Below the pieces are notes generated by a model. The model was not told where the DNA came from, did no database searches, and saw only the letters and a list, made by a program, of their open reading frames with translations. From Acidobacteriota bacterium (GTDB lineage Bacteria; Acidobacteriota; Terriglobia; Terriglobales; Acidobacteriaceae), in assembly GCA_021792795.1 (NCBI GenBank), contig JAJYUB010000024.1, forward strand, positions 1-55,423: a stretch of DNA of 55,423 nt. The letters are read 5' to 3'. The translations under genes and the position numbers were made by a program. Below, in pieces: positions 15,812-19,076 of the stretch (position 1 is the stretch's first letter; each line of letters opens with the position of its first letter).

Positions 15812-16918
15812 TTACGCCTTTAGGCGCTGAGGTTCTTGCCTCGCAAAATACCGTTTGCGCATCCAGAAGGCAACGCTCACCAGGCTGATCAGCGCCGGTA
15901 CTTCAATCAGCGGACCAACGACCCCCACAAATGCCTCGCCGGAGTTCAACCCGAACACCGCCACCGCCACCGCAATCGCCAGTTCAAAATTATTGCCCGC
16001 TGCCGTGAACGACAGCGTCGCCGACTGCGCATAGTTCGCGCCCAGCCGCTTGCCCATCCAGAAACTCACCAGAAACATCACCCCAAAATAGATCGCCAGC
16101 GGAACCGCGATGCGAAGCACATCCAGCGGCAGTCGCACAATCAGATCGCCCTTCAGGGAAAACATCACGACGATCGTGAACAGCAGCGCGATCAACGTCA
16201 GCGGGCTGATGCGCGGAATGAACCGCGTCCGATACCACCCCTCCCCGCGAAGACGCAGCAGAACCACTCGCGTCAGCAACCCGGCCGCAAACGGCACGCC
16301 AAGATAAATTCCCACGCTCTTGGCAATCTGCCCGATGCCAACGTGAACAACGCTGCCCTCCAGGCCGAACCATTTCGGCAGCACCGTCATAAAGACCCAG
16401 GCATACACGCTGTAAAACAGCACCTGAAAAATACTGTTCAGCGCCACCAGTCCGGCAGCGTAGTCCGTGTCTCCCTCCGCCAGTTCGTTCCATACCAGCA
16501 CCATCGCGATGCAGCGCGCGATGCCAATCAGGATCAGCCCCCGCATATACGCCGGCTCGCCGCGAAGAAATGCAATCGCCAGCAGAAACATCAGCACTGG
16601 CCCGATGACCCAGTTCTGTACCAGCGACAACCCGAGCACTCGCTTGTTGCGGAACACCTCGCCCAGTTTCTCGTAGCGCACCTTCGCCAGCGGCGGATAC
16701 ATCATCACGATCAGGCCGATCGCGATGGGAATATTGGTCGTTCCCACCTGAAAGCGGTTTACAAACCCAGCGCTGCCGGGAACGAAGTGCCCAATGGCCA
16801 CGCCAATCGCCATCGCCAGAAAAATCCACAACGTCAGCCAGCGGTCCAGAAACGACAGGTGTTTCCGCTGCTGCGGCGCGCAAACCTGTCCCTCCGTCGC
16901 CAGTGCGTTGGCCATCAT
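15812..16918 (-). CDS. acr3: arsenite efflux transporter, ACR3 family
   Basis: A 368-residue inner-membrane protein with about ten spans that extrudes arsenite. Family landmarks are [48 protein letters not shown] (split here only for description; it contains the essential membrane Cys in ARCIAMV) and [19 protein letters not shown]. The start is ATG at 16916-16918, overlapping the arsR stop by four bases, so arsR and acr3 are coupled. A longer open frame upstream is out of register with arsR and is rejected. Confidence 0.95.
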
Positions 16919-17331
16919 GCTCTGGCCTCGCAGCCGCAAGCGGGATCGACCGGCATGGGAACGGGCGCGCCTTCCAGCGCGGCAAATTTCTTCGGGCTGC
17001 AGCATGCCTTCAACAGCCGCGCGCGGTCCGCCTGCATCTTGCGGTCTTCCCCCATCCACGCCAGCGTCTGCCGCAGCAGTTGCGTGGCCCCAATCTCCGC
17101 CGGCATCGCGATGCGATAGTGCATCCACTTGCCCTCGCGCCGCGCTGCCACAATTCCCGCGCGCCGCAGGTACGCCAGGTGCCGCGAAATCTTCGGCTGC
17201 GACTGCCCCAGAATTTCCACCAGGTAGCAGACGCAAATCTCCCGCTCTCCCATCAGGTTCAGCAGGCGCAGGCGCGTATTGTCTCCCAGCGCCTGGAAAA
17301 AACTCTCCGCGTTGAATTTACGTGGTTTCAT
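16915..17331 (-). CDS. arsR: ArsR-family arsenic-responsive repressor
   Basis: A 138-residue winged-helix regulator. It carries the ArsR metal-site motif as [10 protein letters not shown] (about 32-41) in front of the recognition helix [19 protein letters not shown]. The C-terminal tail has additional Cys residues ([10 protein letters not shown] and [10 protein letters not shown]), which could form an extra arsenite site. It would repress in the absence of As(III). It shares a divergent promoter region with arsM and is coupled to acr3, so it likely controls both arms of the island. Confidence 0.94.
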
Positions 17332-17356
17332 GCTTCTTTTTTATACGCCTTGACGA

Positions 17357-17375
17357 ATATGTTGGCAACGCATAT
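17357..17375. promoter_or_regulatory. candidate ArsR operator in the arsR/arsM divergent region
   Basis: Arms ATATG (17357-17361) and CATAT (17371-17375) flank TTGGCAACG, giving a 19-bp dyad in the only intergenic gap of the divergent arsenic island. The location between the two start codons suits an operator that controls both directions. The match is by symmetry and position only. Confidence 0.4.
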
Positions 17376-17411
17376 ATTTGCTTTAAGAGATATGTCCTCA
17401 AGGAGAATCGT

Positions 17412-18341
17412 ATGCCCGGGCAAATCCTGGATTCCGTCAAGTCGAAATACGCCGCCGCCGCGGAAAGCACGTTGTCCAGCGATCACGCCGGCGTCAAGGC
17501 CGTCGCCGAGGCCTTCGGCTACACCGCCGAGGATCTCACCTCCATTCCCGCCGCCGCCAACATGGGCCTGTCCTGCGGCAATCCCACCGCCACCGCCCAT
17601 CTCAAACCCGGCGAGGTCGTTGTCGATCTCGGCTCCGGCGGCGGTCTCGATGTCTTCCTCGCGTCCAAAATGGTCGGCCCCGCAGGTCGCGCCATCGGCA
17701 TCGACATGACGCCCGCCATGATCGCTCGCGCCCGCGCCAACGCGGCCTCCGGCGGCTATGCCAATGTCGAGTTCCATCTCTCCACCATCGACAAAATTCC
17801 GCTCCCGGACGCTTCTGTCGATTGCGTCATCTCGAATTGCGTCCTCAACCTCGCCCCTGACAAGCCCGCCGTCTTTCGAGAAATTGCGCGCGTCCTCAAG
17901 CCCGGCGGCCGTCTCGCCGTCAGCGATATCGCCCTCAAGCACGAGCTGCCCGAGGCCCTCGCCAACAACATCGCCGCCTATGTCGGCTGCATCGCCGGCG
18001 CCATTCGCATCGAGGATTACCGCAGCGGCCTGCTCGACGCCGGCTTTGAGCATGTTGAAATTGTCGACAGCGGCTCCGACCTGAACGCCTACGCAAAAGT
18101 CGAGAATCAGTCCGGCTGTTGCTCGCCCGCCAAGGATGCCGGCCACGCCCCCGCCGCCACCCCTGCGAACGCCACCGCCACTACGCTCGCGGCGCTCGAA
18201 ACTTCCTGCTGCGCGCCCACCATCCCCGCGCCCGCGTCGCTGCACGATGAACTCGCATCGCTGCTGTCGCAGTACGATGTCAACGCCGCTGCCGCCAGCG
18301 TCAAGGTCTACGCCGTCAAACCAAGCTCGCGTGTCAGATAG
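17412..18341 (+). CDS. arsM: arsenite S-adenosylmethionine methyltransferase
   Basis: A 309-residue class I methyltransferase that methylates As(III). The SAM motif is [16 protein letters not shown] (about 70-85). Cysteines expected to bind arsenic are present at C55 (MGLSCGNP), C143 ([12 protein letters not shown]) and C193 ([10 protein letters not shown]). A C-terminal extension of about 75 residues is Ala/Pro-rich with two Cys pairs (CC236-237 and CC266-267). The ATG at 17412 has an AAGGAGA ribosome site; an upstream in-frame start does not. It is divergent from arsR-acr3 and followed by arsC. Confidence 0.93.
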
Positions 18342-18346
18342 AAAGT

Positions 18347-18457
18347 TGTCATGCCGACCCCTTCGACTTGGCTCAGGGCAGGCTCCGTGAAGTGTCCCGC
18401 GTTTCCCGCGCGCGAAGAAAATTTGGGTGCCCCAGGTTCGCGAAGCTAACCTGGGAT
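18347..18457. repeat. arsM-arsC gap with palindromic repeats
   Basis: A GTCATGCCGACC... stretch near 18348 resembles GTCATCCCGACC near 15449. It is followed by GGGTGCCCCAGG (from 18426) with a later ACCTGGG, the same arrangement as near 5578-5610. These are dispersed repeats, not genes. Confidence 0.55.
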
Positions 18458-18473
18458 GAAAGTGAGATGCGTC

Positions 18474-19076
18474 ATGCCGCACTACAATGCTTTATTTCTC
18501 TGCACCGGCAACTCCGCCCGCTCCATCCTCGCGGAAGCCATCCTCAACAGCAAAGGCGCGCCCACCTTCACCGCCTACAGCGCCGGCAGTCATCCCTCTG
18601 GGGCCGTTCGCCCGGAAGCCCTGCGCCAAATCGCCTCCGCCGGCATTCCTGTCGAAGGCCTGCGCAGCAAGTCCTGGGATGAGTTTGCCCAGCCCGGCGC
18701 GCCCCACCTCGACTTCGTCTTCACCGTTTGCGACAACGCCGCCAATGAAGTCTGCCCCATCTGGCCCGGCCTGAGTGGTTCTCCTTCGGGTCTTGACCGA
18801 AGCCCAGATACTCGACCCGCCATTTCCTTAAGAAATGCGGGCGTGATTGACCTGCAAAAGGCGATGGAAGAAGGAGAACCACTCCACCCCATCACCGCCC
18901 ACTGGGGAGTGCCCGATCCCGCCGCCGTCCGCGGCACCCCGCAGGAAATCGACCGCGCCTTCGCGCAAACTTTCTCTACCCTCGACCGCCGCATCACCCT
19001 GCTGCTCTCCCTGCCCCTAGCCTCGCTCGACTCCCTCGCCATCCAGCAGCGCCTCGACTCCATCGCCCACCAGTAG
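18474..19076 (+). CDS. arsC: arsenate reductase, thioredoxin-coupled LMW-phosphatase type, with an internal insertion
   Basis: A 200-residue enzyme that reduces arsenate to arsenite for Acr3 export. The catalytic loop is FLCTGNSARS (nucleophile C10) and the shuttle cysteines are C86 and C94 (FTVCDNAANEVCPIWPG). The family normally continues directly into PITAHWGVPDPAAV, but here about 38 extra residues (100-138) intervene, encoded by the palindromic element at 18773-18884. The frame stays open through the insert and the C-terminal part is intact. The start at 18474 is chosen over 18456 because the catalytic Cys is then residue 10, as usual. Confidence 0.9.
   Translation: MPHYNALFLCTGNSARSILAEAILNSKGAPTFTAYSAGSHPSGAVRPEALRQIASAGIPVEGLRSKSWDEFAQPGAPHLDFVFTVCDNAANEVCPIWPGLSGSPSGLDRSPDTRPAISLRNAGVIDLQKAMEEGEPLHPITAHWGVPDPAAVRGTPQEIDRAFAQTFSTLDRRITLLLSLPLASLDSLAIQQRLDSIAHQ
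18773..18884. repeat. 112-bp palindromic element inserted in frame in arsC
   Basis: Perfect 15-bp terminal inverted repeats, GAGTGGTTCTCCTTC (18773-18787) and its complement (18870-18884), bound the element. Inside are a CTTCGG/CCGAAG hairpin (18784-18802) and a CCCGC.ATTTC/GAAATGCGGG hairpin (about 18817-18842, one bulged base). It matches the extra 38 residues of ArsC, so insertion added an in-frame peptide without a stop codon. No second copy was seen in this window. Confidence 0.8.

Follow-up and report, generated by a model that had tools for sequence, protein, structure and literature searches.

A palindromic element within an Acidobacteriota arsenate reductase gene, best read as a copy of a new MITE family

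An in-frame palindrome in arsC

The arsenate reductase encoded in the window (the whole stretch of 55,423 nucleotides of Acidobacteriota DNA that was analyzed) carries 38 residues between CPIWPG and PITAHWG, and the locus raises the question of how this segment came to lie within a conserved enzyme and what it means for the gene that bears it. From its open reading frame, alignment, and profile matches, the gene (arsC, 18456 to 19076, plus strand, with a start perhaps at 18474) encodes an LMW-phosphatase-type arsenate reductase of 206 amino acids, insert included. It belongs to an ars cluster at 15812 to 19076, in which arsC shares the plus strand with a methyltransferase, and a regulator and a transporter lie on the minus strand. 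These are an SBF-family transporter (15812 to 16900; Pfam SBF), presumably the arsenite exporter ACR3; an ArsR-type regulator (16915 to 17331; Pfam HTH_5); and, upstream of arsC, a methyltransferase (17322 to 18341; Pfam Methyltransf_31), presumably the product of arsM.

The segment is present in the window ArsC only. It is absent from all 44 homologues aligned, congeners included (45 proteins in the alignment, consisting of the window protein and 44 of 80 homologue loci, the other 36 loci being covered by a motif check only), and without the window protein these 44 need only 175 alignment columns. By the motif check, 6 residues separate the second shuttle cysteine motif from HWG at 78 of the 80 loci (L040 and L080 failed the motif match and so are unscored), versus 44 residues in the window protein. 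An ArsC match was obtained in 7 of the 10 genomes of the genus, the window's own included, and in the other six the match covers both flanks of the insert without spanning it; in congeners the flanks are joined directly, the filled arsC is longer by 114 bp, and nine rows from six genomes all have CA at the target. The earlier note, which proposed this alignment, named a segment shared by all close homologues in diverged, nonpalindromic DNA as the mark of an old protein insertion; the opposite was found, with 44 of 44 lacking the segment and related palindromes present elsewhere.

At this position lies a palindromic element of 112 bp (18773 to 18884, plus strand), a putative IS630-type MITE recognized by inverted-repeat detection, comparison with congeners, a covariance-model match, and its fold. 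Its terminal inverted repeats (left, 18773 to 18787, plus strand; right, 18870 to 18884, minus strand, a perfect complement of the left arm) are 15 nt each and 100% complementary, just as the earlier note had read them; they are separated by 82 nt and are the sole inverted-repeat pair reported in 18600 to 19050; the outer bases of the left arm resemble the ends of three IS630-type elements. Where two internal hairpins had been described, the predicted fold has three within the arm stem, all on the plus strand: a small one adjoining the left arm (18788 to 18805), a core hairpin with one bulged base (18816 to 18841; CCCGC-C-ATTTC CTTAA GAAAT-GCGGG), which by alignment and predicted fold is better conserved in the family than any other inner part, and a third small one (18846 to 18865). 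The folding energy of the 112-nt element is −52.8 kcal/mol, compared with −29.2 (standard deviation, 3.5) in 200 dinucleotide shuffles, none of which was as low (z, −6.8).

The dinucleotides at its borders are CT on the left (18771 to 18772) and CA on the right (18885 to 18886); congeners likewise have CA at the empty site, a comparison that points to CA on the left as well before mutation. The unit does measure 112 bp, as first described, but the gain in DNA relative to congeners is 114 bp: the element and a 2-bp target duplication together make 38 codons (18771 to 18884, plus strand; residues 106 to 143, from the ArsC alignment and motif check). The insert was also correctly seen to be in frame and stop free, the frame from 18456 to 19076 being open throughout its 206 codons. 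We also considered that the frame had been restored by a 1-bp deletion in the core hairpin, a claim given up since subfamily copies vary in length. Misassembly of the insert through repeats is unlikely because BLAST finds nothing closer elsewhere in the genome than a 67-base piece at 76% identity.

A dispersed family, its target sites, and a candidate partner

That piece is the only second copy, and a partial one, that BLAST detects in the same genome, and the BLAST results (2 own-genome matches and none with an E value of ≤0.001 in the nine other genomes of the genus) had suggested a low-copy element. We rejected this, as the reason lies in divergence: a covariance model found many more. An arm-plus-core pattern matched 3 of 398 genomes of the taxonomic family (the window's own, G174, and G361, each from another genus), and the model, built from seven sequences found by this pattern, places the palindrome at at least 26 sites in its own genome at an E value of ≤1 and at least 23 at ≤0.01 (150 of 457 candidates scored), in 9 of the 10 genus genomes (150 candidates scored in each), and, across the class, in 28 of 299 genomes (stricter filters, 12 candidates scored in each). 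Thus, the search for further copies of the 112-bp unit that the earlier note had called for returned related palindromes in the window's own genome as well as in related ones.

Our study set comprises 84 copies at 72 distinct sites, with 24 from the own genome, 55 from congeners, and 5 from G174 and G361, leaving out two weak matches (L221 and L222) and congeneric rows with E values above 0.01. Copies are 97 to 127 bp long, both flanking dinucleotides included, and contain no transposase. Terminal inverted repeats are general in the family, and a number of copies have decayed or keep only one half; in one of the latter (L215, G000:C93:41652-41778), the right arm and core are intact and the left half is unrelated sequence. 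A count of 10-base terminal inverted repeats was 12 versus 6 for the own genome, with congeners showing no clear excess, and a terminal-repeat pattern allowing one mismatch, run over 200 genomes, returned mostly background and yielded the G174 pair. Some copies adjoin other repeats: the flanks of L211 (G000:C49 near 57331-57629) match many places in congeners (e.g., eight G004 contigs at 83%), which suggests a position within or next to another repeated element, and two orthologous copies (L223 and L225, both at 2486-2630, from G007 and G002) lie within another palindrome, AGCCT(A/G)ACGGC ... GCCGTCAGGCT.

Plasmid and phage searches for the element found nothing; one AT-rich match from the pattern search of viral_contigs (L142) has flanks unlike those of the family and was taken as chance. 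Over the element, none of 4,227 Rfam covariance models matched up to an E value of 5 at five loci that carry it, and no earlier description of the palindrome family was found in the literature searched, which lacked most subscription journals. The segment is best read as a copy of a new MITE family of Acidobacteriota, of a kind already known (RPE, ERIC, and RUP).

The sites occupied by the family are mostly, and not exclusively, TA. The terminal dinucleotide is TA at 43 of 84 left ends and 44 of 84 right ends, followed at right ends by CA (12) and TG (10), with left ends more mixed, and copies flanked by CA/CA and by TG/TG exist among the 84. Empty sites were found with joined-flank queries against congeners. 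At five own-genome sites (L204, L201, L216, L205, and L208), a single TA stands in the empty allele, which is 114 or 116 bp shorter than the filled one; the latter has TA at both ends in all of these except L205, where it is at the right end only. Three others lack TA in the empty allele compared, namely, L200 (CTT, net 112), L203 (TCA), and L210 (TCG). The junction comparisons L203/L311, L212/L319, and L216/L310 were unusable. At arsC, the CT and CA flanks and the CA of the empty congener site depart from TA, which counts against an IS630-type MITE, the IS630-family element ISY100 being described in the portion of PMC2170065 available to us as inserting almost exclusively at TA. The arsC insertion would nevertheless fit the same duplication rule with CA as the target, if the left flank was originally CA as the congeners suggest. 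As a separate observation, the empty site corresponding to L208 (G008:C54:73-254) is 99% identical to the flanks, versus only 78% identity between the ArsC proteins of the two genomes, and this disparity suggests a recent transfer of that stretch.

A candidate source of the mobilizing enzyme is present in the genome, in which DDE_3 (PF13358) has 14 matches. One of these loci (L322) is a 1-kb element with two open reading frames, the first IS630 HTH-like just below the curated cutoff and the second a DDE_3 protein (1.5e-33), and has TA-flanked ends GAGCATTTTTAATTTAAG / GAGCGTATTTAATTTAAG (GAGCATTTTTAA/GAGCGTATTTAA). Two relatives in G001 have TA-flanked ends GAGCATTTTCAT/GAGCAGTTCTAC and GAGCAGTTTCTG/GAGCATTTTCTG, pairs that match at only 12 of 16 bases. 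The ends of these three IS630-type elements of the genus begin GAGC[A/G][T/G] after TA, like most palindrome ends, a likeness limited to the outer 8 to 9 bases. Up to one mismatch, 121 of 168 palindrome ends agree with a nine-base IS630-end pattern, versus 0.16% of 18,803 flank TA sites, a figure that measures likeness and is not an independent test, the pattern having been written with both sets of ends in view. In a terminal-repeat scan of 17 IS630-type loci (shuffled-sequence control, 0.15 pairs per 3.4 kb), three had GAGC ends, two had an inner repeat only (L336 and L348, one place), two had unrelated pairs, and ten had none; that 14 of the 17 lack GAGC ends counts against an IS630-type origin, and two other IS630 elements of the own genome have ends unrelated to those of the palindrome.

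Weighing these points, we regard it as very probable that a copy of this MITE family was moved into a CA of arsC, most likely by an IS630/Tc1-mariner-type transposase, adding 38 codons that are probably translated. The transposase would act on the shared ends TA-GAGC[A/G][T/G]TT... and insert the element by cut and paste into a dinucleotide, usually TA and, in arsC, the CA of a conserved codon. Duplication of that dinucleotide would add 112 + 2 = 114 bp, or 38 codons. Since most elements start with RAG behind TA, landing on a TA in the arsC phase would have created TAG, and the CA target gave a sense codon; in place of the expected TAG, the left codon is now CTG, and the frame through the palindrome is stop free. 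Translation would then yield an ArsC with a 38-residue loop between the shuttle cysteine Cys100 and His149-Trp150-Gly151.

ArsC with the insert

Upon inspection of the protein, the catalytic CX5R motif and the two shuttle cysteines are present, and C16, R22, C92, C100, H149, W150, and G151 are invariant across the alignment of 45 ArsC proteins. The shuttle cysteines had been numbered C86 and C94, which holds for a start at 18474; counted from 18456, they are C92 and C100. ArsC scores below the NCBIfam equivalog cutoffs both with the insert and without it. Structures modeled with AlphaFold2 with and without the insert, as the earlier note had suggested, give a pLDDT below 50 at residues 104 to 141 of the window protein and of at least 90 for 101 residues, and a mean of 88 for a congener ArsC without the insert; both models retrieve arsenate reductases on top in structure searches (8p5n and 8p6m). 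From these models, the 38-residue insert is probably disordered. The helix after C92 (93 to 97 in the congener) is shorter in the window model, in a region of low confidence from which nothing is concluded.

An insert of this kind need not be tolerated, and the gene may instead be on its way to becoming a pseudogene, its frame open by chance, with the hairpin lowering expression or the loop killing the enzyme too recently for decay to have set in. We count this a live possibility, if the lesser one. By chance, an open in-frame insert would be no rarity, given that the net length is divisible by 3 in 30 of 84 copies and that a mean of 1.86 of 6 frames per copy is open, versus 1.11 in composition shuffles; the perfect arms, moreover, suggest youth. 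With one choice of outgroup, 8 nonsynonymous and 11 synonymous changes fall on the arsC branch, versus 3 and 10 on the sister branch, which makes some relaxation possible, although such branch counts vary with the outgroup. Against this stand 206 codons without a stop or frameshift, the retention of all catalytic and shuttle residues, and an overall dN/dS of 0.21 to the nearest congener (15 nonsynonymous and 22 synonymous differences in 158 codons), evidence that leaves the insertion undated within its branch. In addition, the window ArsC is the only protein in the genome with a match to PF01451, the family of arsenate reductases that the search covered, and it lies in the ars cluster.

Stop codons, paired arms, and known palindromes

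The copy in arsC is the only one of the 84 that lies inside a recognizable protein. With arsC set aside, a crude gene call places 22 of 83 copies over a gene stop, 59 elsewhere in intergenic DNA, and 2 in called frames (L206 and L218, in which the frames that span the copy have a lower third-position GC content, 0.62, and no other support); by inspection, other spanning frames read as upstream extensions or antisense frames. Stop overlap thus affects 22 of 81 copies (20 of 71 sites, arsC aside, as orthologous copies are not independent), compared with 5.8% of permissible control sites, or 11.6% allowing for both ends (p = 9e-5). Similarly, where element ends read TAA or TAG, 27 of 82 terminate a frame that runs open for 150 codons or more, versus 6.5% of 5,337 control TAR sites. 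Most elements start with RAG behind TA, and one that lands in a stop codon therefore restores a stop. The proposal that all copies are oriented like the upstream gene was dropped, since stop overlaps occur at both element ends. Two copies in G361, L140 (1496-1608) and L132 (1496-1609), lie between genes that are apparently cotranscribed and may affect the downstream gene; we take the two gene pairs to be an ABC ATPase and permease and trpB and trpA, and the copy between trpB and trpA remakes the stop of the first of these genes. The habit is not new in kind, as the available portions of two papers describe BOX elements (PMC3049150) and GTAG REPs (PMC3733652) as supplying gene stop codons.

The arms and the core hairpin of the element covary. 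Over 25 pairs (15 in the arms and 10 in the core) in 18 copies chosen for alignment, 93.8% of 433 cells are paired, and both sides have changed in 15 of the 25 pairs. Double changes occupy 59 cells, versus a mean of 19.6 in shuffles (0 of 500 as high) and at most 11 in slid versions; kinship among copies inflates such counts, and the slid control retains that kinship. The count of further pair types was nonsignificant (64 of 500 shuffles as high). In the arsC arms, the fourth base of the usual GAGC is changed on both sides (T-A for C-G), which preserves the stem. The divergence of inner arm sequences between subfamilies would be unusual for substrates of one transposase and counts against IS630 mobilization.

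Strong arm covariation with changing sequence and the many copies at stop codons are also what would be expected of a spreading structured RNA or regulatory element of mRNA 3′ ends, mobile by some means other than IS630 and misplaced in arsC. We judge such an element improbable: the ends resemble those of IS630-type elements and are accompanied by TA duplication, stop overlaps at left and right ends allow either direction, and the Rfam search at five loci returned no match over the element up to its limit of E = 5. An old protein insertion that is palindromic by chance has practically nothing left to recommend it, being refuted by its absence from all 44 aligned homologues and by the dispersed related copies, with the fold (z, −6.8) further against it. 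Returning to the MITE reading, we tentatively extend it, in a form that we consider doubtful, to the family as a whole: the pairing and not the arm sequence would be what is kept, with quite dissimilar arms staying matched within one genome; the GAGC end alone would be fixed for an IS630 transposase, stop codons would be safe landing sites because the stop is restored, and a rare non-TA landing, as in arsC, would give rise to protein.

Protein-inserted palindromes are best known from Rickettsia, and the earlier note likened the arsC insert to them. The likeness stands for the manner (a small mobile palindrome, in frame, in a conserved enzyme), with membership compared by description only. As available to us in part, PMC2229807 and PMC10969869 describe RPEs as stem-loop-forming elements of about 105 to 146 bp that have terminal inverted repeats and occur in frame within conserved enzymes; the arsC element is of about the same size and, on this description, shares these terminal repeats and this placement. 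The family differs in its host, in having a probable transposase partner, and in that RPEs are in frame in many genes, whereas an in-frame palindrome inside a conserved protein was seen in arsC and in none of the 83 other copies. The suggestion that repeats may thereby create new protein segments is, for this family, weak as a general route, with 1 of 84 copies inside a recognizable protein.

Other bacterial palindromes share particular traits. ERIC/RU-1 of enterobacteria is an imperfect palindrome (127 bp) with TA ends, TA duplication, and open reading frame fusions (PMC2759123, seen in part); the Acidobacteriota family, likewise an imperfect palindrome with TA ends and TA duplication by description, differs in host phylum and in that the arsC insert lies inside a conserved domain, within which the accessible text of PMC2759123 reports no repeat. 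RUP of Streptococcus pneumoniae (107 bp, TA target, ends like those of IS630-Spn1; partial text of PMC2229807) would share the inferred class of mobilizer; it has another host and is intergenic with stops in all six frames according to that text, whereas the arsC copy is intragenic, and PMC2759123, in its available part, places RUP also within genes, stated without data. BOX repeats of pneumococcus and GTAG REPs resemble the family in that repeat ends supply gene stops and differ in architecture, REPs being 20 to 40 bp and GTAG REPs accompanying tyrosine transposases, in Acidobacteria too (PMC3733652, in the part available). In PMC8841776, as far as its text was accessible, MITEs occur in the reference list only.

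In the portion of a review that we could consult, transposase-driven movement of protein-inserted palindromic elements is without experimental support (PMC2229807). For the present family there are both occupied and empty sites, a probable partner transposase whose element matches in its outer ends, and, beside redox cysteines, an insertion that keeps the frame. Two questions are now directly testable: whether an IS630 transposase moves the palindrome and whether an enzyme tolerates such an insert at its birth. Landing in stop codons suggests a way for such elements to spread through genomes dense with genes, and the arsC insert is a clear, testable new case of a known way in which selfish DNA can add a protein segment.
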